From Comamonadaceae bacterium OH2545_COT-014 (GTDB taxonomy: Bacteria > Pseudomonadota > Gammaproteobacteria > Burkholderiales > Burkholderiaceae_C), in assembly GCA_003859965.1 (NCBI GenBank), contig RQYR01000028.1, forward strand, positions 1 through 37,458: a DNA stretch of 37,458 nucleotides. Reading direction: 5' to 3'. The notes beneath the pieces are model-generated. The model made no database searches. It was not told the origin of the DNA and worked only from the letters and a program-made list of their open reading frames with translations. Of this stretch, positions 5,260-18,379 are shown piece after piece; the first letter of the stretch is position 1; every line of letters begins with the position of its first letter. The position numbers were made by a program, and so were the translations under genes.

Positions 5260-5961
5260 TCAGTCTGCCGGGCCGATGGTCAGCGCGATTTCGCCCACGC
5301 CGTCGATGCCGCCGCTGAGCCGGTCGCCCGGCTGCACCGCGCCCACGCCCTCGGGCGTGCCGGTGTAGATCAGGTCGCCCGGCCGCAGGTGGTAGTAGTG
5401 CGAGAGGTTGGCCACCACTTCGGGCACGCGCCAGATCATCTCTTTCAGGTCGCTGTCTTGCCGCACTTGGCCGTTGACGGCCAGGTGGATGCGGCCGGCG
5501 GCCGGGTGGCCGATCTGGCTGGCGGGGCGCAGCGCGCTGATGACGGCGGCGTTCTCGAAGTCCTTGCCGAAGCTCCAGGGCCGGCCGGCCTGCTTGGCGG
5601 TGTTTTGCAGGTCGCGCCGCGTCATGTCCAGCCCGCAGGCGTAGCCCCACACGCAGGCCAGCGCCTGTTCAGGCGTGACGCGAAAGGCCGGCTGGCCGAT
5701 GGCGATGACCAGCTCCATCTCGTAATGCAGGTTTTGCGTGCCGGGCGGATAAGGCGCGGTGGCGCCGCTTTCCACCAGCGCGGCGGGGGTTTTGTGAAAG
5801 TAAAAGGGCGGCTCGCGCTCGGGGTCGGCCCCCATCTCGCGCGCGTGCGCCGCGTAGTTGCGGCCCACGCAGAAGATTCGCGCCACGGCGTAGCGCTGGC
5901 CGCTGCCGTGCACAGGCACGCTGGCCTGGGGGGCGGGGGGGAAAACGTAGTTCTGGCTCAT
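5260..5961 (-). CDS. Fumarylacetoacetate hydrolase family protein (fumarylpyruvate hydrolase-like)
   Basis: This 233-residue metal-dependent hydrolase is of the short FAH type (FAHD1 or NagK-like), which cleaves or decarboxylates beta-diketo acids from aromatic and amino-acid breakdown. It shows CVGRNYAAHAREMG near 30, the metal-binding ELVIAIG near 78, GYACGLDMTRRDLQ near 100, KDFENAAVISAL near 127, and the C-terminal LRPGDLIYTGTPEGVG. I start at ATG 5961 (MSQNYVFPP), because the upstream part of the open frame is low in similarity and lies in intergenic DNA. The Bug-protein gene follows about 140 bp downstream, so a shared substrate is conceivable but unproven. The exact substrate is unknown. 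Confidence 0.88.
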   Translation of the reverse strand: MSQNYVFPPAPQASVPVHGSGQRYAVARIFCVGRNYAAHAREMGADPEREPPFYFHKTPAALVESGATAPYPPGTQNLHYEMELVIAIGQPAFRVTPEQALACVWGYACGLDMTRRDLQNTAKQAGRPWSFGKDFENAAVISALRPASQIGHPAAGRIHLAVNGQVRQDSDLKEMIWRVPEVVANLSHYYHLRPGDLIYTGTPEGVGAVQPGDRLSGGIDGVGEIALTIGPAD

Positions 5962-7489: not shown

Positions 7490-10400
7490 TTAGGGCCGCG
7501 GTTGCAGGCGCTCGATCTCCTGCTCCAGCGCCTCGATCTGCTGGTGCATTTGCGCGTCCGTGCCCATGCGTGATTCCACTGCGCGCACCAGCGGCATGAT
7601 GAGTTGGCGGTAGGTGACGGACAGCGAGAGCAGGGCGTCCACCATGCGCTGCTCCTGCGCGCGGTCGCTGTGCTGGGTCAAAGCCTGGGTGCTGTCTTGC
7701 ACGGCCTTGAGGGCGGCGGCGCTGGCGTCCAGCGCTTCGCGCAGGCGGGTCTGGGCGGCGGCGTTGCCGTCTTGCAGGTGCTGCGCCAGTTGCACCAGCG
7801 CCTGGCTTTCGGGCGAGGGGGCGGGCGGCTGGCCGAGCTGGCGGGCCAGCGTGGCCAGGGGCCTGGCGATCAGCAGGTTGCCCCGGCTGAACTGCCGGGC
7901 CAGGTGGTCCAGGGTTTTTTCGGGGTTGAGCGCCTGCAGGCTGCGCGAGATGTCGAGCAGGCCGCGGGTGACGCGCACGCTGGGGTCGTCGTCGGCGCCG
8001 CCCATCTGGCGCTGGCGGCGGTATTCACCCTCGATCTGTTGCCAGCGCTCGGCTTCTTCGGCGGTGGGCTGGCCGATGAGGTGGGCGAGCTGCAAGAGGT
8101 TTTCTTCCGCGCCGGTGGTCAGGGTCTGCGCCTCGCCGCGGTAGTGGTCGCGCAGCAGGCTGGCAATGTCCTGCGGCGTCATCAGCGGGGTGACTTGCGG
8201 CGCCAGGCGGGCCATGTTGCGGTAGCTGCCTTGCAGCTTGAAGGGCGGGGCCTGGCGGTAGCGGTCGTCTTGCGCGGCGGACTGGATGTAGGCCTGGTTC
8301 ACTTTCAGGAGCACGTCGCGCACGTCCATCAAGCGTTGCAGCAGGTTTTTGATTTCGTCCAGCTCGGCGGCGCTGTAGGGGTGGGCCAGCTCGGCGGGGT
8401 CGATGGCTTCGCCCTGGGCCATGCGCGCGAGCAGGGGCACGTCCCTGGGGTCGCGCGCGGCCAGCGGCTGGGTGACAGGGTGGCTGGTGAGGCTGTTTTC
8501 AATGTAGGAGAGCGCGAACACCGCCTCGCGGCCGGAGAGCACGTCGCCCAGGTTGTAGATGTCGGCGCGGTTGGCCAGCATGTCGGGGATGCGGAAGGCC
8601 TCGCCCGATTCGGTGTAGGGGTTGCCCGCCATGACGATGGCAAAGCGCTTGCCGCGCATGTCCCAGGTGCGGGGCTGGCCCTGCCACACGCCTTCGATGC
8701 GGCGGGTGCCGTCGGCCAGGGCGATGAACTTCTGCAGAAACTCCGGGTGGGTGTGCTGGATGTCGTCCAGGTACAGCATGACGTTGCTGCCCATGGCCAG
8801 GCCGAGGTTGAGCTTTTCCAGCTCCTGCCGGGCGGCGCTGTTGGGGGCAGTGGCGGGGTCGATGCTGGTGACGCCGTGGCCCAGCGCGGGGCAGTTGATG
8901 CGCACGAATACCAGGCCCAGGCGGTCGGCCACGTATTCCATGAGCGTGGTCTTGCCGTAGCCGGGCGGCGAGATGAGCAGCAGCAGGCCCGAGCGGTCGC
9001 TGCGGCTGGCCTCGCCCGCCGCGCCGATCTGCTTGGCCAGGTTGGCGCCGATCAGGGGCAGGTACACCTCGTCAATCAGGCGGTTGCGCACGAAGGTGGA
9101 CAGGGGTTTGGCCTGAAACTGCGCCAGGTGCAGGCGGGCGCGTTCTTGCGCCAGCAGGTCGTGGCGCAGCGCCTGCAGCGCCTGGTAGCCGGGCAGCGCG
9201 TGTTGGCGGTGGTGGCGCACGCGCTGCCAGAAGTCATTCAGATCCAGCGTGAGCGTGCCGTTTTCAATGCGCGGGTGTTCGCTGCGCAGGCCGGTGACGT
9301 GTGTGTGCCGCGCGGCGTTGATGCGCCGGCGCGGCGCGGCGCAGGCCAGGCAGGTGGCGGCGTCGTCCACGCTGGCCAGCCGGGCGGCGCGGTCTTCGTG
9401 GTCTTGCGCGGAGGCGGGCGCCTGCGACTGCGCGAAGGCCAGCGCCCATTGGCGCGCGGTGCGCCAGGCTTCCAGCGGGCTGGCCGCTTGCAGGTCGCGC
9501 TGCCAGGCGGCGTGCTGGCCGCCGTGGTCCAGCGCGCGTTCCAGCGCGGCGGCCAGGTCTTGCCCGCTGCCGCTGACCACCCAGGTCACGGGGGCGCCGG
9601 GCAGGGTTTCGTCGGCGCCGGTTTCGTGCGCGCTGGCGCCCAGTTCGCGCACCAGGTAGGCCGCGGCTTCGGCGCACAGGGTGTCGCATGCCTGGCGCCG
9701 GTCTGCGTCTTGCTGGCCGGGCGGGCACAGTTCATCGGCCAGGCCGGGGTGGGCTGCCAGAAAGGCGGCCAGCAGCGATTGGGCTTCCCGCGCCAGGGCG
9801 TCCAGCGCCAATGGCGCTGAAAACAGCTGCGCCATGCGCTGCCCGGCGCGTGCGCGGCGGGCGAGCATCTGGCGGGTGTCGTCCGGCAGGCCGGCTGTCC
9901 ACAGCAGCAAGGCCAGCGCACGCGCGGCGGGGCTGTAGATGAGCAGGCCGGCGGCGGCCTGCATGGGGGCCAGGGCGCGCACGATGGCCAGCGCGTCATC
10001 GTCATGGATGCCGCGCTGGTAGCCCTCCTGGTAGCGGGCGGCGGCAAAGCGGCGCAGCGGCTCCAGCAAGGCGGCGGGCGGGGCGGCGTCGGCAGGGGTT
10101 TCGGCCAGCTGCACGAGCAGTTCGTCCCAGCCGGGTTCGGCCTGGCCGGCTTGCAGGGCGTCCAGCCATTCGGCGGCCAGGTATTCGGCGCGGGCCAGTT
10201 GCCCGGTTTCAGAGGCCAGGTGCTGGCCCCAGTAGGGGCGCAGGGCGTTCAGCCGTTCGTCGCGGGCGGGGGCCAGGTAGTCGGTGCCGGTGATTTGCCA
10301 GGCCAGTGCGGGCTGGCCGTTTTCCTCGTGCGCGACGAGGGTCAGGTCAATGGGTTGGCGGTTGACGGTGAAGGCGTGCGCGCCCAGCCGGATGTCGCCT

Positions 10401-13057
10401 GCGCCGCCGCCGGCGGCCAGCTCGCGCTGGTCGCGCACGGTGCGCGTGGCCTGCGCTTGCGCGGTTTTCAGGCGGGTGGCCAGATCGTCCGCCGCTACGG
10501 CGGCGCCCAGGCGGCGCAGCTCGGCGATTTGCTCGCGCAGCTTGGCGAGCATGGGGTCGGCGGCGAAGTAGCTGTGGACCTGGTTCAGATCGGTCAGGCT
10601 GGCGGCGCGGCGCGCGGCGCCGTCCAGTATGCGGCCCGCCGCGTCGGCCAGAGCCTTGGCGCGGCGCTGGCGCGCATCCACCAGCGCCTGCCGGCGCGCG
10701 CTCATGGCTTCGTAAACGGCCTCGCGCTGGGTGGCAATGTCGGCCAGAAAGTCTTCCTGCTCGGCAAAGCGGGTTTCAATGTCTTCCAGCTGTGCCAGCA
10801 GGCGGGTGAGGGCTTCGTCGCATTTTTCGGGCGTGTCCGCCAGCTCCAGCGCGTTTTCCACCGCCTGGCCAAACAGCTTGAATTGCGCGCCGAATTCGGC
10901 CCGCTGCTCGGCCGCGCCCAGGGTGCGGCGGCGCTGGCGGGCGTCGGCGCGCAGGCGGTTGATGTCGGCGTAGAGCAGGGCGATGCGGTCGAGGATGGCG
11001 GTGCGCTGCACGGCATCGCTCCCCTGGGCGTGGCTTTGCAGCAGGCCGATTTGCTCGCTCAGCAAATCCAGCCCGGCGGCCTGCGCGTCCAGCGCGGCCA
11101 GCCATTGCCCGATTTGCGCGGCGCTGTCGGCCTGCGGCAGCTGCGCGGCCACTTGGGCCAGCACCTGGCGCTGGGGGTCGAAGGCTTTGTCCTGGCTGAG
11201 AAACTGCAGGGCGCGTTCGCCCACGCGCTGCTGTTCGGCGGCCAGCTGCCCGGCCATGCGGTCGATGCGGGGCAGGTCGGCGTAGCGCAGCTCGCGCAGG
11301 GTGTGCAGCTGGCCCTGGCGCTGGCGCAGGCGGTCGAGCGCCTGCACGAAGTCGGCGCTTTCGCGCCACATCTGGGCGGCCAGCTCGCCCAGCAGTTCGC
11401 GGGTTTGCGATTCGGCGGTGTCCAGTGCGCGGGCGGTGCTGGCGCGGATGGTTTCGACCTTCTCGAACTCGGCCAGCGTGGCTTGCGCGGCCTGCTCGAT
11501 GGCGTGCAGGTCGGCGGCGATGTGTTGCACCTCGGGCGCGTCGAGCCAGAAGTAGGCGTCGCGCGCGCGCTGGCACTGGCGGATCAGGTCTTCATAGGCC
11601 GCGCGGGTGGGCGCTTGTTCGCGCACGGCGCGGGTGATGCCGTTCAGGTCGGAGATGCCGCGCACCAGGTCGGCATTGCCCACGCGGGCGTGAAAGCCGG
11701 CGCCCTTGGGCTGGGCGCTGGCGTGTTCTTCGGTGGCGAACGGGGTTTGCCACAGCTGCATGGGGTGCACGCGGGTGGCTTCGCCGCGCGCGGCCTGGAA
11801 GACGAGCAAGCGGCCGTCGGCAAAGCGGGCGTAGCCATCAGCCAGGATGGGCGCGGCCAGCTGCTTGTGGATGAGGTTGTAGGTGAACAGGGCGTAGCAG
11901 CCGGCGTCCGGCGCGGCGGGGCCGCTGGCCTGGCTGGCGGGGGCGGGCACGTTGCCGTAGAACACGTAGGCCACGTCTTCGCCATTGGGCGAGCGCAGCA
12001 TGCGGGAAAAACGCAGGTGTGCGGCCAGATCGGGCGGCAGGTCGAAGCGCTTGTATTCGCCCGATTGCAGGTAGTAGCCGCCGGGGAAGATGATGCCGTG
12101 GTCCTCCGGCAGCTGCACGCATGAGGCGCCAATGGCGTCGATGCGCTCCACCTGGCGCGTGCGCGGGTTGAAAACCAGGTAGCGCGCGGCGCTTTCGCGG
12201 TAGGGCCGCACGCGCAGCAGGATCAGCAGGCCCCGCCGGGCGTAGGCCACTTCGGCGTCGCCTAGCGCCTGGCTGGCGTCTTCCACCGGCTCGCTGTAGA
12301 TGCCCAGCCCGGTTTCGGTGTTATTTTCCACCTTTACGGTGAGGTGGCCGCCCAGGGTGTCGACGAACACCGTGTCCAGGATGTTGATGTGCGGGTGGCG
12401 GCCGCCCACGTGCTGTTCACGCGTGACGGGCGTCCACTCGAAATCATGGCTGGGCGGCGGGGCGATGTCGCGCTCGCCCCGGTTGTCCACGTAGGTCAGT
12501 CGCCCGTCGGCCTCCATGCGCCAGCGGAACACGCGCGTGTCTTGCCGCTGCTGGCCGATCTGGAAGGCGGCGAGCAGGTATTCCTGCGTGTGTGTGAGCT
12601 GCTGCAGCGTGGCCTGCTTGTAGTAGGTGTACAGCTCGCGGAAATCGGCCACGAAGCGCTCATCGGCCAGAAAACTGCCTTCCAACGGCAGGGGAATCAG
12701 CTCGTCGTGCTCGGCGTCGCCTTCGGTGTGGGCCAGCTCGTACAGGGCGAACACGTCGCCCACGGCGGTTTCCTGCCGCAGCCCCATGAACACGTTGTAG
12801 CCAAACAGCAGCCGGTTCGGGCCGATGCGCACCATGTCGCGCGCCACGCAGTTGTGCTCGGTGCGCGCGCGGGTGCGCAGCAGCAGGCGCTGTTCGGTCT
12901 GGCCGAACTGCGCCATCCGCTCGGCGTTGAGCGCCTGCGTCTTGGCCAGCAGCGCATCGCCTTGCTGTGCCAGGCGCTTTTTCAGCAGCTCGTAGCTGCT
13001 GCTGGCGGCCACGGCGGCGTCGATGGCGGCTTCTTCTTGGGGGGCGAGGTCACTCAT
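7490..13057 (-). CDS. Giant coiled-coil AAA+ ATPase of the 'DNA repair ATPase' (DUF3686-type) family
   Basis: This is a very large (1855-residue) cytosolic ATPase of unknown function. The N-terminal about 470 residues look like the DUF3686-type domain (RIGPNRLLFGYNVFMGLR, IIFPGGYYLQSGEYKRFD, ISDLNGITRAV). A long coiled coil (about 500-900) and a variable middle region follow. The AAA+ module is near 1300-1650: Walker A PPGYGKTTLME near 1365, Walker B VMLYLDDIQHTHPEF near 1428, sensor 1 MAGNPYTESGEAFR near 1475, and GSYRNMARLAP as the probable sensor 2 region. The ATPase core is MoxR-like. The C-terminus ends in another coiled coil. The DNA-repair name is inherited annotation and not shown by the sequence. 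It stands directly downstream of the flotillin/YqiJ/PspA genes, interrupted only by a toxin-antitoxin pair, which suggests a membrane-remodelling or stress role. Confidence 0.9.
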   Translation of the reverse strand: MSDLAPQEEAAIDAAVAASSSYELLKKRLAQQGDALLAKTQALNAERMAQFGQTEQRLLLRTRARTEHNCVARDMVRIGPNRLLFGYNVFMGLRQETAVGDVFALYELAHTEGDAEHDELIPLPLEGSFLADERFVADFRELYTYYKQATLQQLTHTQEYLLAAFQIGQQRQDTRVFRWRMEADGRLTYVDNRGERDIAPPPSHDFEWTPVTREQHVGGRHPHINILDTVFVDTLGGHLTVKVENNTETGLGIYSEPVEDASQALGDAEVAYARRGLLILLRVRPYRESAARYLVFNPRTRQVERIDAIGASCVQLPEDHGIIFPGGYYLQSGEYKRFDLPPDLAAHLRFSRMLRSPNGEDVAYVFYGNVPAPASQASGPAAPDAGCYALFTYNLIHKQLAAPILADGYARFADGRLLVFQAARGEATRVHPMQLWQTPFATEEHASAQPKGAGFHARVGNADLVRGISDLNGITRAVREQAPTRAAYEDLIRQCQRARDAYFWLDAPEVQHIAADLHAIEQAAQATLAEFEKVETIRASTARALDTAESQTRELLGELAAQMWRESADFVQALDRLRQRQGQLHTLRELRYADLPRIDRMAGQLAAEQQRVGERALQFLSQDKAFDPQRQVLAQVAAQLPQADSAAQIGQWLAALDAQAAGLDLLSEQIGLLQSHAQGSDAVQRTAILDRIALLYADINRLRADARQRRRTLGAAEQRAEFGAQFKLFGQAVENALELADTPEKCDEALTRLLAQLEDIETRFAEQEDFLADIATQREAVYEAMSARRQALVDARQRRAKALADAAGRILDGAARRAASLTDLNQVHSYFAADPMLAKLREQIAELRRLGAAVAADDLATRLKTAQAQATRTVRDQRELAAGGGAGDIRLGAHAFTVNRQPIDLTLVAHEENGQPALAWQITGTDYLAPARDERLNALRPYWGQHLASETGQLARAEYLAAEWLDALQAGQAEPGWDELLVQLAETPADAAPPAALLEPLRRFAAARYQEGYQRGIHDDDALAIVRALAPMQAAAGLLIYSPAARALALLLWTAGLPDDTRQMLARRARAGQRMAQLFSAPLALDALAREAQSLLAAFLAAHPGLADELCPPGQQDADRRQACDTLCAEAAAYLVRELGASAHETGADETLPGAPVTWVVSGSGQDLAAALERALDHGGQHAAWQRDLQAASPLEAWRTARQWALAFAQSQAPASAQDHEDRAARLASVDDAATCLACAAPRRRINAARHTHVTGLRSEHPRIENGTLTLDLNDFWQRVRHHRQHALPGYQALQALRHDLLAQERARLHLAQFQAKPLSTFVRNRLIDEVYLPLIGANLAKQIGAAGEASRSDRSGLLLLISPPGYGKTTLMEYVADRLGLVFVRINCPALGHGVTSIDPATAPNSAARQELEKLNLGLAMGSNVMLYLDDIQHTHPEFLQKFIALADGTRRIEGVWQGQPRTWDMRGKRFAIVMAGNPYTESGEAFRIPDMLANRADIYNLGDVLSGREAVFALSYIENSLTSHPVTQPLAARDPRDVPLLARMAQGEAIDPAELAHPYSAAELDEIKNLLQRLMDVRDVLLKVNQAYIQSAAQDDRYRQAPPFKLQGSYRNMARLAPQVTPLMTPQDIASLLRDHYRGEAQTLTTGAEENLLQLAHLIGQPTAEEAERWQQIEGEYRRQRQMGGADDDPSVRVTRGLLDISRSLQALNPEKTLDHLARQFSRGNLLIARPLATLARQLGQPPAPSPESQALVQLAQHLQDGNAAAQTRLREALDASAAALKAVQDSTQALTQHSDRAQEQRMVDALLSLSVTYRQLIMPLVRAVESRMGTDAQMHQQIEALEQEIERLQPRP

Positions 13058-13076
13058 GGGTGCAAATCTTGGTAAT

Positions 13077-13105
13077 CAGTACAAAGTACTGTTGATGTAT
13101 ATACT
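13077..13105 (+). promoter_or_regulatory. Promoter and palindromic operator of the toxin-antitoxin pair
   Basis: The perfect palindrome CAGTAC-AAA-GTACTG (13077-13091) is followed by a good extended -10-like element, TATACT (13100-13105). The antitoxin ATG lies about 38 bases beyond, with CGGAG before it. Type II antitoxins with a ribbon-helix-helix fold repress their own promoter through such palindromes, so this is the likely autoregulatory operator. The site also lies 20 bases upstream of the ATPase start and could affect that gene. Confidence 0.6.
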
Positions 13106-13142
13106 TTTGACACGTTCATCCTTCTTTTGTCCGGAGCGAACC

Positions 13143-13424
13143 ATGTCCAAGGAAGCGGTTTTCACCATGAAGCTGGAACCGGAGTTGCGCGCCGCCTTCA
13201 TGGCTGAAGCCGAGGCGTTGCACCGGCCCGCATCGCAAGTGGTGCGCGAGTTGATGCGCGAGTTCATCCAGCGGCAGCAGGAAAGCCGTGCGTACGACGC
13301 ATTTCTGACCGCCAAGGTGGCACAGGCGCGGGCGGATGCACAGGCCGGGCAGGTGCGCGACAACGCATTGGTGGAGGCTGAATTCGCCGCCCGCCGCGCC
13401 GCCGTCCTGACAGGCCAGCCATGA
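13143..13424 (+). CDS. Ribbon-helix-helix antitoxin (CopG/ParD-like)
   Basis: This 93-residue protein is the probable antitoxin of a type II pair. The N-terminus (VFTMKLEPELRAAFMAEAEA, then ASQVVRELMREFI) fits a ribbon-helix-helix DNA-binding fold: a short beta strand and two helices. The rest is a charged helical tail (residues 45-93) that would wrap the toxin. The start is the ATG preceded by CGGAG; an upstream GTG/TTG extension would run through the promoter. The stop overlaps the toxin start by four bases (ATGA), giving translational coupling. It is on the opposite strand to the cluster that flanks it. Confidence 0.85.
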   Translation: MSKEAVFTMKLEPELRAAFMAEAEALHRPASQVVRELMREFIQRQQESRAYDAFLTAKVAQARADAQAGQVRDNALVEAEFAARRAAVLTGQP

Positions 13425-13708
13425 GGCTGGCCTGGACGCGGCACGCAGAGGAGGACCGCCTGCGCATATGGGAGTACATCGCCGCCGACAATCCGCCCGC
13501 CGCCGCGCAGATGGATGCCCTGTTCGGGCAGGCCGCCGAGCGTTTGCGGGCCCACCCGAAGCTGGGTGCGCCGGGCCGCATTGCGGGCACGCGCGAATTG
13601 GTGGTGCATGCGAGCTACCGGATGGTGTATGAGCAGGATGCCGGTGGCGTGCTGATTCTTGCCCTGGTGCACACCGCCCGGCAGTGGCCGCCGCAAGCCG
13701 CGGCTTGA
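13421..13708 (+). CDS. RelE/ParE family toxin
   Basis: This 95-residue protein has the ParE/RelE pattern: WTRHAEEDRLRIWEYIAADNPPAAAQMDALF at the start, HPKLGAPGRIAGTRELVVHASYRMVYE in the middle, and a final strand ILALVHTARQWP. The Arg and Tyr residues of the TRELVVHASYRMVY segment are those conserved in ParE-like toxins. Relatives either poison gyrase (ParE) or cleave mRNA on the ribosome (RelE); the sequence looks closer to ParE. It is read from the ATGA overlap with the antitoxin and ends 20 bp from the convergent flotillin stop. Confidence 0.88.
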   Translation: MRLAWTRHAEEDRLRIWEYIAADNPPAAAQMDALFGQAAERLRAHPKLGAPGRIAGTRELVVHASYRMVYEQDAGGVLILALVHTARQWPPQAAA

Positions 13709-13728
13709 CCTGTCCCGGGCGCTGCGAC

Positions 13729-15849
13729 TCAGCCCTGGCGCCCCAGCCCTTTCGCCAGCGTGCGCAGCGCGTCTTTCTCCGCGTCTGTCCCCTGGGTGGC
13801 GATTTTGGTAAGCAAGGCCGTGACGCCCAAACCTTGCAGTTCGCTGGATGACTGGCCGGCGGCGGCCAGGATTTGCTTGAGGTCTTCCACCACGTCGCGC
13901 TTGCCCTCGATCTGCTCCTTGAAGGCGGTTTGCAGCGTCTGGCTCTTGGCGATGGCGCTGTCGATGCCCTTGCCCACCGAGAGGGCGCGCACGAAGCTGT
14001 CGAAGTAGGCGCTGTCGCCGCCCACGATGTCGATGTTGGCCTTGCCCAGCGCGGTGCTCATCACGGCGGCCTGCTCGCGGGCGATCTGGGCCTGGGTGTC
14101 GATGGCCTTCATGGCCTCCAGGTGCGTGCGCTCCAGGCGCATGCGGTATTCCTCGTGCTCGCGGGTGTCGGCGCTCATGGCTTTCATGGCCTCGAACTTT
14201 TCTTTCAGGCCGCGCGCCTCGGCGTTGAACTTCACGTCGATGTTGTGGGCTTCGGCGTCGCCAGTGCGGGTCAGCGCCTCGGCTTCGGCGGTGCGCACGT
14301 TGGCCTCGGCCTGGCCGATCTTTTCCTTGCCTTCGGCCTCGGCCTCCATGCGGGCGCGCAGGCCCACGGCTTCGGCCTGGGCCTGGGCCTCGGTCACTTG
14401 CGCCTGGGCGCGGCCCACTTTTTCGGCGCCGGCGGCCTCGGCTTCCATTTGCGCCAGGTGGGCGCTGGCGGCGGCTACCTGCACCTTGGCTTGGGCCAGG
14501 CCAGGGGCGGCGGAGAGGGCTTCCACGCCTTCGGCTTCGCGTTTCTTGGCTTCGGCATCGCGCTCGGCCACTTTCAGGCGGGCGTCGGCCAGCAGCAGGT
14601 CTTCGGCGGCCTTGTGACGGGCGCGTTTTTCCTGCGCTTCGGCGGCCTTGACTTCGATGACCAGCTTTTCCTCGGCCGCGGCCTGGGCGGTGATGACGGT
14701 GGCCTTGGCGGTGCGGTCGGCCTCGGCCACTTCGCGCACTTCCTTGATGGCTTCTTCCTGTTCGGCCACGGTGCGCTCGACCACGATGCGTTCGCGGATC
14801 ACGTCGGCAATGGCTTTTTTCTGGATTTCGACGGCGCGCTCGGCGTCAATGCGCTGCAGCGTCACTTCTTTCTCGCGCGCCACCACTTCCAGGTCCTTGG
14901 CGCGGGTCACGCGCTCTTGCTCGATGACGACGGCGCGCTTGCGGTTGTTTTCGGCCACTTCCTTTTCGCGCAGCACGTTTTCCTGCTGCACGGCCACCTG
15001 CTGCTCGGCCTGCAGGCGCGCCAGCTCGGCGCGGGTGCGTTCTTCGGCCTGGATCTTGGCGGTTTCGGCCTCCTCGCGGGCCTGCACGGTGGCCACTTCG
15101 CGCTTTTGGCGGGCGGTGGCGTCCATTTGCTGGCGCTCCAGCTCCAGCAGGGCTTCCTGCGTTTCCACGTTCTTCTTCTTGATCTGCATTTCCTCGTTGC
15201 GGCGCAGCTCGTTGGTGATGACGTGTTCCACCGCGGTCAGCTCGGTGATTTTCTTGATGCCTTGCGCGTCCAGGATGTTGTTGGCGTCCAGGCGCGACAG
15301 CGGGGTTTGCTCCAGGTAGTCGATGGCGGCGTCTTCCAGCACGTAGCCGGACAGGTCATCGCCAATTTGCTCGATGATCTTGTCGCGGAAGCGGTCGCGC
15401 GCCTGGTACAGGTCAACGAAGTCCAGCGCCTTGCCGGCGGTTTTCAGCGCCTCGGAGAACTTGGCGGAAAACAGGTCTTCCAGCGTTTGCTGGTTGGAGG
15501 CGCGCTCGCAGCCAATGCCCTGGGCCACGCGCAGCACGTCCTCGGCGGTCTGGTTCACGCGCACGAAGAACTTGACCTTGATGTCGGCGCGGATGTTGTC
15601 CTGGCAGATCAGGCCCTGGTCGCCCGAGCGGTCGATGTCGATGGTCTTGATGGAGATGTCCATCAGCTCGGCCTTGTGGATGATGGGATAGACCATGCGG
15701 CCGGTGAAGGTGACTTCCGGCGCGGCGCGCAGGGTGTTGACGATCAGCGCCGTGCCTTGTTCGACCTTGCGGTAGAACTTGGCGAACAGGGCAAAGACGA
15801 CCAGGATGAAAAAGACGGTGATGCCAATGGCGATCAGGATGGGTTCCAT
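13729..15849 (-). CDS. Flotillin family protein (YqiK-like)
   Basis: This 706-residue protein is anchored by one N-terminal membrane segment (ILIAIGITVFFILVVFALFA, residues 4-23). An SPFH/Band 7 domain covers about residues 28-200 (VEQGTALIVNTLRAAPEVTF, DNIRADIKVKFFVRVN). A long Ala/Glu-rich coiled coil (about 200-610) with AEAEG-type repeats typical of flotillins follows, then a short C-terminal helical region. Bacterial flotillins gather in membrane microdomains and scaffold other proteins. It lies 74 bp downstream of the YqiJ-like gene, the same pairing as yqiJ-yqiK in Escherichia coli, and the two probably act together in the inner membrane. No strong ribosome-binding site is visible before the ATG. 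Confidence 0.93.
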   Translation of the reverse strand: MEPILIAIGITVFFILVVFALFAKFYRKVEQGTALIVNTLRAAPEVTFTGRMVYPIIHKAELMDISIKTIDIDRSGDQGLICQDNIRADIKVKFFVRVNQTAEDVLRVAQGIGCERASNQQTLEDLFSAKFSEALKTAGKALDFVDLYQARDRFRDKIIEQIGDDLSGYVLEDAAIDYLEQTPLSRLDANNILDAQGIKKITELTAVEHVITNELRRNEEMQIKKKNVETQEALLELERQQMDATARQKREVATVQAREEAETAKIQAEERTRAELARLQAEQQVAVQQENVLREKEVAENNRKRAVVIEQERVTRAKDLEVVAREKEVTLQRIDAERAVEIQKKAIADVIRERIVVERTVAEQEEAIKEVREVAEADRTAKATVITAQAAAEEKLVIEVKAAEAQEKRARHKAAEDLLLADARLKVAERDAEAKKREAEGVEALSAAPGLAQAKVQVAAASAHLAQMEAEAAGAEKVGRAQAQVTEAQAQAEAVGLRARMEAEAEGKEKIGQAEANVRTAEAEALTRTGDAEAHNIDVKFNAEARGLKEKFEAMKAMSADTREHEEYRMRLERTHLEAMKAIDTQAQIAREQAAVMSTALGKANIDIVGGDSAYFDSFVRALSVGKGIDSAIAKSQTLQTAFKEQIEGKRDVVEDLKQILAAAGQSSSELQGLGVTALLTKIATQGTDAEKDALRTLAKGLGRQG

Positions 15850-15922
15850 GGGGGGCGCTTTCGGTCAGGCGGGGTGACAGCGGGGGTTGAGGGAAAAGGG
15901 AGAAGGGAAAAGGAAAGGGGGG

Positions 15923-16570
15923 TCAGGGCGCGTCCAGCGGCTGCACCAGAAAGCGCTGGCTGGCGGCGTCGTACTCGACGATCAGCGCCTGCTGGCCGCG
16001 CGCCAGCGTGTTGGGGCGGGGGGCCCAGACGCGGATGTTCAGGCTGGCGCCGCGCTGCGCCACTTCGGCGCGGCCCTGGCGCTCGTCCACCACGCCGGTG
16101 AGGATGCGGCACACCTGGCCCACCAGCGCGGCATGGCTGGGGGCGTTGTGCGTGACGAACAGCCGGCGCAGCGGCCGCACCAGGCGCGCCGTGATGACCA
16201 CCGCCAGCGCCGCGCTGGCCAGCAGCGCCGCCAGCGCGGCCAGCCAGTGCATGGGCCCGGCGGGCAGCAGCGGCAGCAGCCACATGCCGGCCAGGCAGCT
16301 CAGCGTCCAGCCCGTGAGGGCGAGCAGGCTGAGGGCGATGGAAAAGGGCACGCCGCCCAGGCCGAAGGCGAGCACGTAGCTGGCGATCTGGCCCAGGCTG
16401 TCGGGGCTGGCATCGGCGTGGGCGCTGATGTCCAGGTCGATGCTGCTGGATTCGAAATCCACCATGCCCAGCAGGGCCAGCACCCAGTACACCAGCGCCA
16501 CGCCCAGCAGCACGGTGTAGATGGCGGTGGGAAAGGCGCTGACGGCGCTCAGAAAGCTGGCGGCGGGCAT
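15923..16570 (-). CDS. YqiJ-like inner-membrane protein with C-terminal OB-fold (NfeD-like)
   Basis: This 215-residue protein has about four membrane segments: YTVLLGVALVYWVLALLGM near 18-36, two between about 66 and 105, and LAALAALLASAALAVVITA near 112-130. A soluble C-terminal OB-fold-like domain follows (LVGQVCRILTGVVDERQGRA onward). The architecture matches YqiJ and NfeD partners of flotillins, which bind them through the OB domain. Two in-frame ATGs occur; I choose the second (16570) because GAGGAGG lies 6 bases before it and directly abuts the first. It is part of the minus-strand cluster and is the upstream neighbour of flotillin. Confidence 0.85.
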   Translation of the reverse strand: MPAASFLSAVSAFPTAIYTVLLGVALVYWVLALLGMVDFESSSIDLDISAHADASPDSLGQIASYVLAFGLGGVPFSIALSLLALTGWTLSCLAGMWLLPLLPAGPMHWLAALAALLASAALAVVITARLVRPLRRLFVTHNAPSHAALVGQVCRILTGVVDERQGRAEVAQRGASLNIRVWAPRPNTLARGQQALIVEYDAASQRFLVQPLDAP

Positions 16571-16676
16571 GGGCATCCTCCTCGGGGTGGTGTGTTTCGG
16601 CGGCAGGCGGCTGGTGCCGGGGCGGCCACCCTTTTATGTTTTTGGGCTTCAGGGCAGAAACAGCAATAGTTTATTG

Positions 16677-17021
16677 CTATCTTTTTTGATTTTTCTGGCT
16701 GACGAGGGCAAAGGCCATCAGCTCGCGTGTGGCGGCTTCCTTGATGCTCAGGCGGTCGTCGGGCGCCAGGCCGTAGCGTTCGGCCAGCAGCGCGTAGTCA
16801 TCGGCGCCCAGGGTCACGGTCAGGCGCGGGCGCTTGGGCTTTTCCGCCACCGGCAGGCCCAGCACCAGGCGGATTTGCGTGGAGGTGGAGACGTGGCCGT
16901 GAAACGCGGCGGTGCGCACGGCTTCCATCACGGCCTCTTCCACGTCAAAGGCCACCTGCACGGCGCGCAGGGCGCTGTCGCTGCCCTGCCAGCGCGCCGG
17001 CTTGCGGGCTGCGCCGTTCAT
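16677..17021 (-). CDS. Uncharacterised 114-residue protein coupled to pspA
   Basis: I do not recognise this protein. It is soluble and basic at both ends. The middle to C-terminal part (RLTVTLGADDYALLAERYGLAP, then KEAATRELMAFAL) has the strand-helix-helix rhythm of a ribbon-helix-helix DNA-binding protein, and an earlier stretch (VSTSTQIRLVLGLP) could be a second such helix. Its start overlaps the pspA stop by four bases (ATGA), so it is translationally coupled to PspA. It is the best candidate in the cluster for a regulator, possibly acting on the 34-bp palindrome at 18346-18379; that link is inference. The stop codon lies inside a small inverted repeat (AGCAATA-GTT-TATTGCT). Confidence 0.75.
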   Translation of the reverse strand: MNGAARKPARWQGSDSALRAVQVAFDVEEAVMEAVRTAAFHGHVSTSTQIRLVLGLPVAEKPKRPRLTVTLGADDYALLAERYGLAPDDRLSIKEAATRELMAFALVSQKNQKR

Positions 17022-17767
17022 GACGGCGTGCCGGGGGTGGCGCCCGGGGCGGGCGCGGGGGCGCCGCCGCTGGCTGCGGACTGGCGGGTGCGCAGGCGCG
17101 CCAGCACTTCGGTGGCGCGCACGGAGGCATCGTCGCCAATGCCGGCGCTGGCGAGCTTTTGTTCCAGCGCGCGGTGGCCGAACTCCTGGTCCAGCTCCTC
17201 GGCGGCGGCCATGCGGTCAGCCAGGTCTTCGTGGCGCTTCTTGATGCGCTCCAGCGATTCGCGCGCGCTGGTGAGCTGCGAGCCGCTGGCGCCCATGCTG
17301 TCGGAAATGCTTTGCGTGGCGCGGTAAACGCTTTCGGTGGTCTTGGCGATGCCGATCTCGCGCTCGTGTTCGCGCACGCGGGCCTCGGCGCTGCGGATCA
17401 GGTCTTTCAGGCGGCTGACCTGCATGGCATAGGCGGCGTGGGCCTGGCTCTGGGTGTTCAGCTCGGCCTCCAGCGCGGCCACGCGCGTGGCCACGTCCAG
17501 CGCCAGGTCTTCGCGGCTTTTGTCCAGCGCCTGCACGGCCATGTCTTCATGGCGCAGGATGTCGGCCTTCAGGCGCTCGATCTCGCGCGCGCTTTGCTTT
17601 TCCTTGGCCATCACGCCGGTCAGTTCGGTCTTGGCCTGCTGGATGCTGGCCTTGGCGTCCACGATTTCCTGCTCGTAGATGCGGGTGGCGTTGGCGTCCA
17701 CCACGCTCTGGCCCAGTTCACGCGCGCTGCCGCGCAGCAGGGTGACGAGTTTCTTGATGACGGACAT
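17018..17767 (-). CDS. PspA/IM30 family protein (YjfJ-like)
   Basis: This 249-residue, almost wholly helical protein is of the PspA/IM30/Vipp1 (ESCRT-III-like) family, which polymerises on the inner membrane and stabilises it under stress. The start MSVIKKLVTLLRGSARELGQ is the amphipathic membrane-binding helix, and long coiled-coil helices run from about residue 30 to 210. The C-terminal tail (about 225-249) is a low-complexity Ala/Gly/Pro stretch. AAGGAGA before the ATG is a strong ribosome-binding site. It follows the DUF2170 gene, the same order as yjfI-yjfJ in E. coli, and couples to the 114-residue gene. No pspF, pspB or pspC is nearby, so this is not the classical Psp operon. Confidence 0.92.
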   Translation of the reverse strand: MSVIKKLVTLLRGSARELGQSVVDANATRIYEQEIVDAKASIQQAKTELTGVMAKEKQSAREIERLKADILRHEDMAVQALDKSREDLALDVATRVAALEAELNTQSQAHAAYAMQVSRLKDLIRSAEARVREHEREIGIAKTTESVYRATQSISDSMGASGSQLTSARESLERIKKRHEDLADRMAAAEELDQEFGHRALEQKLASAGIGDDASVRATEVLARLRTRQSAASGGAPAPAPGATPGTPS

Positions 17768-17865
17768 GGGGGTCTCCTTTTCAGGGGGTCATGAGGGAGC
17801 ATGGAAGGGGGCCAGGTTTGGCGTGTGCCGCCGCGCCCGGCGCTTTGGGGCTTGCCTTTGAGGGC

Positions 17866-18279
17866 TTATTTCAGGTAGTCGGCCAGGGCGTCCAGCGCGT
17901 CGAGCGCGTTGTCGGAGAGCACGGCCACCTCGTGCGCCACGTCTTCGGTGCGCGCGGCGCGTGCCAGCGCGCCTACCAGCACGTAGCGGCCATCCACCCG
18001 GCCAAAGGCCGAAAGGGGCACGGCGGGGTTGAGATCCAACAGGGCTTCCAGCAGCTCGGCGCGGCGCTCAGGGCGCAAGTCAGCCTCGGTCCACAGGTAG
18101 CACAGGCAGAGCGTCTGGGTGTCGGAGCAGGTGACGAAGATGGGCAGCTCCTCGCGCCCTTCGATGCTGACCTGCACCACTGGCACATCGCCCGCGATGG
18201 GCTGCAATTGCACGGCCAGGCCGCCCATCAGGGCGGAGGTGAGGGTGTCCAGGTTGTTCAGCTGCTCCAGCAGGTTCAT
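17866..18279 (-). CDS. DUF2170 family protein (YjfI-like)
   Basis: This 137-residue acidic soluble protein of unknown biochemical role matches YjfI, the usual upstream partner of PspA-like YjfJ. Visible landmarks are VVQVSIEGREELPIFVTCSD near 35-54, CLCYLWTEADLRPERRAEL near 59-77 and PLSAFGRVDGRYVLVGAL near 88-105. The start is the ATG with AGGAGG five bases upstream; the longer open frame upstream runs through the palindromic operator and is not coding. It is the first gene of the minus-strand cluster and sits just below the promoter described at 18335-18363. Confidence 0.87.
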   Translation of the reverse strand: MNLLEQLNNLDTLTSALMGGLAVQLQPIAGDVPVVQVSIEGREELPIFVTCSDTQTLCLCYLWTEADLRPERRAELLEALLDLNPAVPLSAFGRVDGRYVLVGALARAARTEDVAHEVAVLSDNALDALDALADYLK

Positions 18280-18334: not shown

Positions 18335-18363
18335 AGTGTCTGCGCTTTGACATGAAATGTCAA
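18335..18363 (-). promoter_or_regulatory. Probable sigma-70 promoter of the DUF2170-PspA cluster
   Basis: On the minus strand a perfect TTGACA (18358-18363) is followed by a 17-base spacer and GACACT (18335-18340), which keeps the two most conserved -10 positions (A2 and T6). The start of the DUF2170 gene lies about 55 bases further. The -35 lies inside the palindrome at 18346-18379, so a protein bound there would block or replace RNA polymerase contacts. No sigma-54 GG/GC pair was seen, unlike the classical pspA promoter. Confidence 0.5.
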
Positions 18364-18379
18364 GACATTTCATGTCAAA
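18346..18379. promoter_or_regulatory. Perfect 34-bp palindromic operator, two GACAT-N3-ATGTC boxes
   Basis: A 16-bp arm (TTTGACATGAAATGTC) is repeated in inverted form after a 2-base spacer with no mismatch. Each arm is itself a palindrome of the form GACAT-N3-ATGTC (18349-18361 and 18364-18376), so the site is two operator boxes 15 bp apart. Further half-sites (TGTCAAA) continue at 18374-18388. It is placed over the probable -35 of the DUF2170-PspA cluster and is almost certainly a repressor or activator site. Confidence 0.8.

Follow-up and report, generated by a model that had tools for sequence, protein, structure and literature searches.

A PspA–flotillin–AAA+ ATPase operon of a Comamonadaceae bacterium with a putative ribbon-helix-helix repressor and a matching candidate operator palindrome

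The window analysed here, a stretch of 37,458 nucleotides of contig RQYR01000028.1 from Comamonadaceae bacterium OH2545_COT-014, carries six minus-strand genes that encode a DUF2170 protein, a PspA-family protein, a 114-residue protein (S114), a YqiJ-like membrane protein, a flotillin-like protein and a giant AAA+ ATPase. A preliminary description of this DNA had named the genes and their families; Pfam and profile searches confirmed all six at the coordinates listed below, with weak sequence support for the YqiJ-like protein. As shown by comparison of homologous loci, S114, a probable DNA-binding regulator, goes with a dedicated palindrome at the operon promoter, its putative operator. This palindrome, located before the DUF2170 gene, and a plus-strand antitoxin/ParE pair are both missing from the preliminary description. 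The features of the locus are as follows.

7490–13057, minus strand: AAA+ ATPase of 1855 aa (Pfam DUF3686 609 bits, AAA 25.4 bits, AAA_5 24.5 bits)
13137–13424, plus strand: putative antitoxin of ribbon-helix-helix (RHH)/RelB type (RHH_9 E 0.0075 and RelB E 0.0012, both below cut-off)
13421–13708, plus strand: ParE toxin, mate of the antitoxin at 13137–13424 (ParE_toxin 63.2 bits, cut-off 23)
13729–15849, minus strand: flotillin-like protein (Band_7 41.5 bits when residues 1–197 are scanned alone)
15923–16576, minus strand: YqiJ/NfeD-like membrane protein, flotillin partner (from family matches and position)
16677–17021, minus strand: S114, 114 aa, modelled by AlphaFold2 as a tandem RHH protein, proposed operon repressor
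17018–17767, minus strand: PspA/IM30-family protein of the YjfJ type (PspA_IM30 112 bits)
17866–18279, minus strand: DUF2170 (YjfI) protein, short form (DUF2170 94 bits; ATG at 18279)
18346–18379, no strand assigned: putative operator region, an inverted repeat with two GACATNNNATGTC sites (18364–18376 and 18349–18361)

The DUF2170 start codon, as read from the sequence, is preceded by a Shine-Dalgarno-like AGGAGG, and the S114 gene overlaps the pspA stop by 4 bp. The antitoxin/ParE pair separates the ATPase gene from the remaining five minus-strand genes; it is an insertion outside the conserved system. The flotillin-like protein consists of an N-terminal hydrophobic segment, an SPFH/Band_7 domain and a long coiled coil, and gave no Pfam match when scanned whole and none above cut-off in its C-terminal part. 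The YqiJ-like protein of the window likewise has no Pfam match above cut-off. Within its family, YqiJ_N is matched by 3 of 35 members (best E 5e-4) and NfeD by one Deinococcus member at E 0.0078, below cut-off; a PDB profile search with the family yielded no match. S114 has no Pfam match above cut-off either. No second PspA_IM30 match besides the window PspA was found in the 3.1-Mb genome, which is 99.83% complete; the protein scores 15.7 bits against the classical PspA model TIGR02977, the cut-off of which is 242.95.

We compared 95 ATPase loci, comprising 15 from a genome sample and the best 80 of 528 confirmed ATPase matches, a composition that makes the set lean towards the query. Neighbour genes were sought with profiles built from these same loci, and open reading frame (ORF) starts in the fetched loci were assigned mechanically; L022 and L042, both S114 loci, represent the same region and were both counted. 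Homologues of flotillin occur in 89 of the 95 loci, of the YqiJ-like protein in 86, of PspA and DUF2170 in 64 each and of S114 in 29. The YqiJ-like gene keeps a conserved position directly ahead of the flotillin gene. A flotillin gene is present in 86 of the 89 loci for which 3 kb or more of sequence before the ATPase is available, the exceptions being L028, L046 and L095, and in 78 it lies within 700 bp of the ATPase on the same strand. Given at least 7.9 kb upstream, 62 of 87 loci carry DUF2170, PspA, YqiJ-like and flotillin genes beside the ATPase, and the order DUF2170–PspA–YqiJ–flotillin–ATPase is identical in 62/62 of them; judged from this uniform order, the arrangement is not due to chance. 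Neither PspA nor DUF2170 adjoins the ATPase in 23 of the 87 loci, and only one of the two does so in 2.

The DUF3686 search was positive in 10 of 397 Pseudomonadota genomes, the window's own included, and in 7 of 41 relatives. In this phylum sample the YqiJ-like gene adjoins the ATPase in all 10 ATPase-bearing genomes. DUF2170 is found in 10/10 of them versus 45/387 genomes without the ATPase (Fisher p 1.2e-9, relatedness ignored), adjoining the ATPase in eight and located elsewhere in two (G007 and G050). A collection of plasmids and secondary replicons contained 12 records with the ATPase. The 11 loci examined span four phyla (Pseudomonadota, Deinococcota, Actinomycetota and Bacteroidota), with flotillin before the ATPase in 11/11 and the YqiJ-like gene in 10/11; PspA was not seen in 9/11 within the 8–9 kb fetched upstream. 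Since the YqiJ-like, flotillin and ATPase genes are kept together in the 95-locus set and across four phyla while PspA and DUF2170 are often missing, these three genes are the stable core, to which the DUF2170–PspA pair is often joined. Thus the single system put forward in the preliminary description stands, and the ATPase is not usually found without the flotillin/PspA genes, although the idea is already published; flotillin and YqiJ are by this comparison the constant partners of the ATPase, whereas PspA is optional. On plasmid pQBR103 (L173, 974–14178), the genes YjfI–PspA–rhomboid–DUF2491–DUF350–DUF1190–glutathionylspermidine synthase and YqiJ–SPFH–ATPase stand in one row, which merges two operon groups. 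The ATPase gene of G007 is broken by one stop (L023, 11261–11334, oriented).

The AlphaFold2 model of S114 (pLDDT 77.8) shows two strand-helix-helix units in one chain. The top 12 structural matches, drawn from Foldseek candidates alone, are F-relaxosome chains taken as TraY, together with AvtR, DndE and CopG. Both the secondary structure of the model and structural matches 1–9 agree with a tandem RHH protein of two units. As described in the accessible text on TraY, AvtR and DndE, these proteins share two RHH units per chain with S114, and AvtR represses its own gene (PMC10853773, PMC5569661, PMC12117103); identity to S114 is low (TraY 15%, AvtR 20%, DndE 6–15%) and the biological settings differ. 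S114 is therefore probably a DNA-binding regulator and not a membrane part. S114 was not detected in the plasmid collection at E 1e-5.

The minus-strand sequence ahead of the window DUF2170 gene, TTTGACATGAAATGTCTTGACATTTCATGTCAAA (18346–18379), forms a palindrome with two perfect 16-base arms and holds the two GACATNNNATGTC sites. Its 15-bp form, TGACATNNNATGTCA, occurs at a single place in the window's 3.1-Mb genome. Across the 30 S114 loci, window included, 27 have GACATNNNATGTC in the promoter window, a count that rises to 28 once the search window of L047 is widened for its over-long DUF2170 ORF; the two misses are L058, the contig of which begins at the gene, and L059, in which S114 lies after the ATPase. 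Outside the promoter windows these 30 loci hold one GACATNNNATGTC site, that of L047. There are no GACATNNNATGTC sites in 35 loci with a long DUF2170 and without S114, and among 31 loci with neither S114 nor long DUF2170 the site is present in two, L023 and L099. S114 itself was found in 24 of the 397 genomes, from which 20 regions beyond the earlier loci were fetched as a held-out set; three of them, L162–L164, were removed ahead of counting; they have large open frames, and neither DUF2170 nor PspA was found in them. DUF2170 is present in each of the remaining 17 regions and a PspA match in 16; GACATNNNATGTC precedes DUF2170 in 16/17, the exception being L145. Nine held-out regions were mapped gene by gene and resemble clusters of the spermidine-synthase type; Pfam confirms the synthase and DUF350 in L148, where DUF4178 is slightly below cut-off. 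In L148–L154 a further S114-type operator lies ahead of a gene that heads the cluster and reads as lipoprotein-like from its sequence, about 3.7–4.0 kb before the DUF2170 site, so that the site is present at two of the cluster's promoters.

The flanks of the operator site are unconserved, with a median identity of 26%. When 44 promoters were anchored on the site, which fixes 10 bases of GACATNNNATGTC by construction, TT preceded GACA in at least 80%, and a majority TAnnnT followed 17 bp after TTGACA. Given this spacing, the S114-type site overlies a sigma-70-like –35 box of the operon. The DUF2170 starts are too long in some loci (L047, L071 and L109), and operator search windows accordingly extend into the gene. 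Sigma-54 control of this operon was considered and appears unlikely: strict TGGCN7TTGC sites are few, with 9 of the 65 upstream regions having one and its position varying from locus to locus, and in the window the strict consensus was found only within the DUF2170 gene.

In loci without S114, DUF2170 is a protein of about 206 aa with an N-terminal extension, which is its best conserved part, holding 13 of 29 invariant columns in the first 45 residues. The NCBI model for BacA (NF050185, cut-off 300) matches the long DUF2170 of L017 over residues 1–206 with 348.8 bits, whereas the short protein of the window scores 38.5 bits. The BacA crystal structure 8q8o aligns to residues 64–205 only. By this alignment, the published structure is without the conserved N-terminal head, for which we propose a DNA-binding role; the extension is weakly MazE-antitoxin-like in 10 of 12 members (best E 0.0079). 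The DUF2170 fold is similar to YbjN, SicP and ExsC. A different palindrome, TYACATGTRA, precedes the long-form genes in 31/35 loci versus 0/29 S114 loci, usually paired at about 28 and about 50 bp before the ATG; pQBR103 has one such site, 28 bp before yjfI. Long form and TYACATGTRA go together in Delftia (L106), Lampropedia (L089) and Vandammella (L101), and S114 goes with the S114-type site in Zooshikella (L102) and Thiodiazotropha (L108). Furthermore, the genus Reinekea is split, with R. forsetii (L063) carrying the long form and R. blandensis (L096) carrying S114, each with the matching site. From these pairings, the operator type is seen to follow the regulator form, not the taxon. In long-form loci (e.g. 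L068, ~5340–5436) the ATG stands a few bases past a –10-like box with no obvious Shine-Dalgarno sequence; the long DUF2170 mRNA may be leaderless, a possible reason for the differences in its annotated start.

We searched 11 S114 genomes with the narrower form TTGACATNNTATGTC. Sites are present in nine, always including one at the DUF2170 promoter, and absent from G000 and G358; the reversed pattern had no match in any of the 11. Six distant sites, in three of the 11 genomes, lie before an SPFH–NfeD row with NfeD below cut-off (L166), a gene with an SNF2-type match (L167), an ion channel gene (L168), an AIM24 gene, where the site overlaps the mechanical ORF start (L169), an NfeD–SPFH–SPFH row (L170) and a gene for a bacterial-PH membrane protein (L171). 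In G007, S114 is encoded with DUF2170–PspA on another contig than the ATPase operon, and this short ATPase operon, which is without PspA, has a site 108 bp before the YqiJ-like gene. Based on the distant sites before SPFH/NfeD operons and the site of the G007 ATPase operon, PspA and SPFH/raft genes appear to share one regulon. The paired long-form site is confined to the DUF2170 promoter in G368, G352 and G167, and was not found in G171 and G376 at the same strictness. In G127 it occurs once away from that promoter, by type VI secretion genes: this paired long-form-like site (L172, G127 contig 42, 3383) is flanked by a type VI secretion FHA gene on one side and an ImpA–VipB row on the other.

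The operon as such has already been described, by Ravi et al. and in the bac operon papers, and its regulation is the new part. As far as the accessible text shows, the first group of CesT/Tir-PspA operons of Ravi et al. 2024 (PMC11237479) has the same gene set, plus a short form, and an ESCRT-like role is proposed for it. Shared with the present loci are DUF2170, PspA, a TM-band7-coiled-coil-flotillin protein, the AAA+ protein and YqiJ/YuaF, with PLD in some (PMC11237479). The window carries the mark of this group, a DUF2170 gene (94 bits) followed by pspA (112 bits), and of its other features Band_7, DUF3686 and AAA were found, with YqiJ_N in the 3/35 family members. For the first group, neither a small RHH gene nor an operator is mentioned in the accessible text, in contrast to S114 and its site here; some operons of the second, spermidine-synthase group end with an RHH regulator gene (PMC11237479). 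Rhomboid and TerB are absent from the main text (PMC11237479). The six-gene bac operon of Pseudomonas aeruginosa, in the available parts of its two papers, includes DUF2170 (BacA), the PspA-like BacB, a 23-kDa membrane protein and a 76-kDa protein, and biofilm, swarming and rhamnolipids are reduced when the PspA homologue is lost (PMC2587700, PMC10948618). Disruption of bacA by a transposon raises the five remaining Bac proteins 6.1- to 13.5-fold, and negative operon control by BacA is proposed (PMC10948618); a sigma-54 site is also proposed (PMC2587700, PMC10948618), in contrast to the few and scattered strict sites seen here. The words ‘DNA-binding’, ‘repress’ and ‘palindrom’ do not appear in the accessible text of the BacA paper (PMC10948618). 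BacA is the long DUF2170, whereas the window has the short DUF2170 and a separate S114; judging from gene order, bacE probably encodes the ATPase. An NfeD-like membrane protein is also paired with a flotillin in E. coli yqiJ–yqiK and B. subtilis yuaF–yuaG (floT), and genes for an ATPase, PspA or an RHH protein are not mentioned alongside them in the accessible description (PMC2636767). The regulatory layer was not found in print by a search that left subscription papers, preprints and supplements mostly outside.

In the giant ATPase, Pfam places DUF3686 at residues 37–503 and DUF7902 at 624–711, followed by a long middle part and a C-terminal AAA+ module at about 1320–1650. Walker A, Walker B (D[DE]), the sensor-1 motif GNPYTE and the arginine-bearing motif LQGSYRNM are all present in 93 of 96 homologous frames; the exceptions are L053 (truncated contig), L023 (fragment of the broken gene) and L103 (variant Walker B). 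The usual AAA+ Walker B ends in DE. It is DD in 31/31 aligned ATPase members instead, and hydrolysis may thus be slow. A PDB profile search gave matches mostly in the P-loop region. By hhalign, the AAA+ profile aligned over 111 columns with MoxR and 110 columns with a CbbQ/NorQ-type protein, in both cases through sensor 1, over 98 columns with RuvB at the best score of the four (E 1e-7) and over only 33 P-loop columns with the classic AAA protein FtsH; the own-genome proteins used are those we take to be RuvB, FtsH and CbbQ/NorQ. The module leans to MoxR/CbbQ rather than to classic AAA by these alignments, which is a lean and not a proof.

The gap between the flotillin and ATPase genes is a small insertion spot, with a median of 177 bp and a maximum of 8.7 kb; inserted gaps include L054, L026, L027, L089 and L107, that of L054 (8082–9137) holding a YhcG-type PDDEXK nuclease. 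A homologous antitoxin/ParE pair occupies the identical gap in L029, which retains a zinc-ribbon gene that the window is without; a remnant of this gene in the window gap was rejected, the best E being 0.076 among the matches listed. The accessory families were defined by BLAST grouping, with one or two representatives per family scanned. A family of ~180 aa, zinc-ribbon in the single member scanned, occurs in 25 loci, either in the flotillin–ATPase gap or following the ATPase (e.g. L049 9361–9900). Often found after the ATPase are a PLD-like family (33 loci, e.g. L064 15185–15874) and a rhomboid-protease family (26 loci, e.g. L017 4346–4894), each named from one scanned member. An 80-aa protein adjoins the ATPase in 7 loci (e.g. 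L056 9028–9270), with weak matches to TerB (E 0.005, below cut-off) and to EF-hand. Only part of the other recurrent neighbour families was identified. In Pseudomonadaceae loci (L055–L085 and others), genes for homoserine dehydrogenase and threonine synthase recur upstream in 10 loci each, and yaeQ (14) and recJ (12) downstream, which marks one constant position in the chromosome.

We propose that the operon, the only PspA system found in the genome, serves to produce a membrane-stress patch under the control of a regulator encoded within it, a reading to which we assign a probability of about 0.7. S114 would act as a tandem RHH repressor sitting on the –35 box, and DUF2170, with its CesT/ExsC-like chaperone fold, would sense PspA or another partner and free the repressor upon membrane damage. 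BacA-type proteins would combine sensor and DNA-binding head in one chain, S114 and the BacA head each binding and repressing at its respective operator. This role of DUF2170 as a link between PspA and the repressor is suggested by the fusion and by the YbjN/SicP/ExsC-like fold. After induction, PspA would coat the damaged membrane, flotillin and YqiJ would build a microdomain scaffold, and the ATPase would remodel or clear this scaffold, with flotillin as its first target and PspA as its second. The chances are evenly balanced for a broader proposal, in which a single membrane-stress regulon independent of PspF/sigma-54 comprises PspA, DUF2170, the SPFH/flotillin–NfeD genes and, in genomes that have it, the ATPase. 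This regulon would be repressed by an RHH protein that is either separate or fused to DUF2170, and through DUF2170 the promoter would be informed of the condition of PspA or of the membrane.

An alternative, near the model of Ravi et al., is that the AAA+ protein acts on PspA as Vps4 does on ESCRT-III, flotillin being a mere anchor. PspA and DUF2170 do both adjoin the ATPase in the 62/87 loci, and DUF2170 accompanies it in 10/10 genomes of the phylum sample; however, neither adjoins it in the 23/87 loci, no PspA was seen in 9/11 plasmid loci within the fetched 8–9 kb, no MIT domain was found in the ATPase by a Pfam scan at E 0.1, and the AAA+ profile leans to MoxR/CbbQ, though this alignment is not decisive. 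We therefore consider this alternative, with flotillin as anchor only, rather unlikely, and the Vps4 analogy of the preliminary description is not supported. That the palindromes serve another transcription factor and S114 is unrelated seems improbable: S114 is missing from the 25 kb covered of L099, a locus with two sites, and the pairing of S114 with its site comes from co-occurrence, but the site class switches along with the regulator class across taxa, the site is present in 16/17 loci chosen by S114 alone, and the 15-bp form is limited to one place in the window's genome.

Slightly less credit goes to an anti-phage defence cluster sensing phage-caused membrane damage. Its patchy spread (10/397 genomes of the phylum and 7/41 relatives), its presence on plasmids and the toxin-antitoxin and YhcG nuclease cargo in the flotillin–ATPase gap would suit defence, while PADLOC matches are weak and confined to coiled-coil or P-loop parts (best E 8e-4), the ATPase is in no record of the phage collection at E 1e-5, and the operator targets are mostly membrane genes. 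It is very improbable that the ATPase is a DNA-repair enzyme with incidental neighbours. The Pfam text for DUF3686 reads ‘ATPase involved in DNA repair’ and plasmid gene names follow it; the preliminary description saw no support for this label, which indeed has little beyond the Pfam description, save that the P-loop region is RuvB-like, with RuvB giving the best hhalign score of four, and that recJ lies 1.3–8 kb downstream of the ATPase in 12/95 loci. All of these loci belong to Pseudomonadaceae, where homoserine dehydrogenase, threonine synthase and yaeQ genes are likewise shared, so that the recJ proximity reflects local chromosome order; moreover, flotillin and YqiJ adjoin the ATPase in four phyla. 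We thus dropped the DNA-repair label. Taken together, the preliminary view of a single system is supported but not new, the ATPase goes with flotillin and YqiJ rather than with PspA, a likeness to Vps4 is not supported, and the small protein S114 is probably a DNA-binding regulator.

PspA, which is ESCRT-III-like, and flotillins have mostly been studied apart, and the proposed self-controlled operon addresses both their link and the control of PspA without PspF. The short and exact operator with a dedicated regulator means that site scanning could reveal further members of the regulon. The regulator model could account in concrete terms for the higher levels of Bac proteins after bacA disruption, and it draws attention to the crystallisation of BacA without its most conserved segment.

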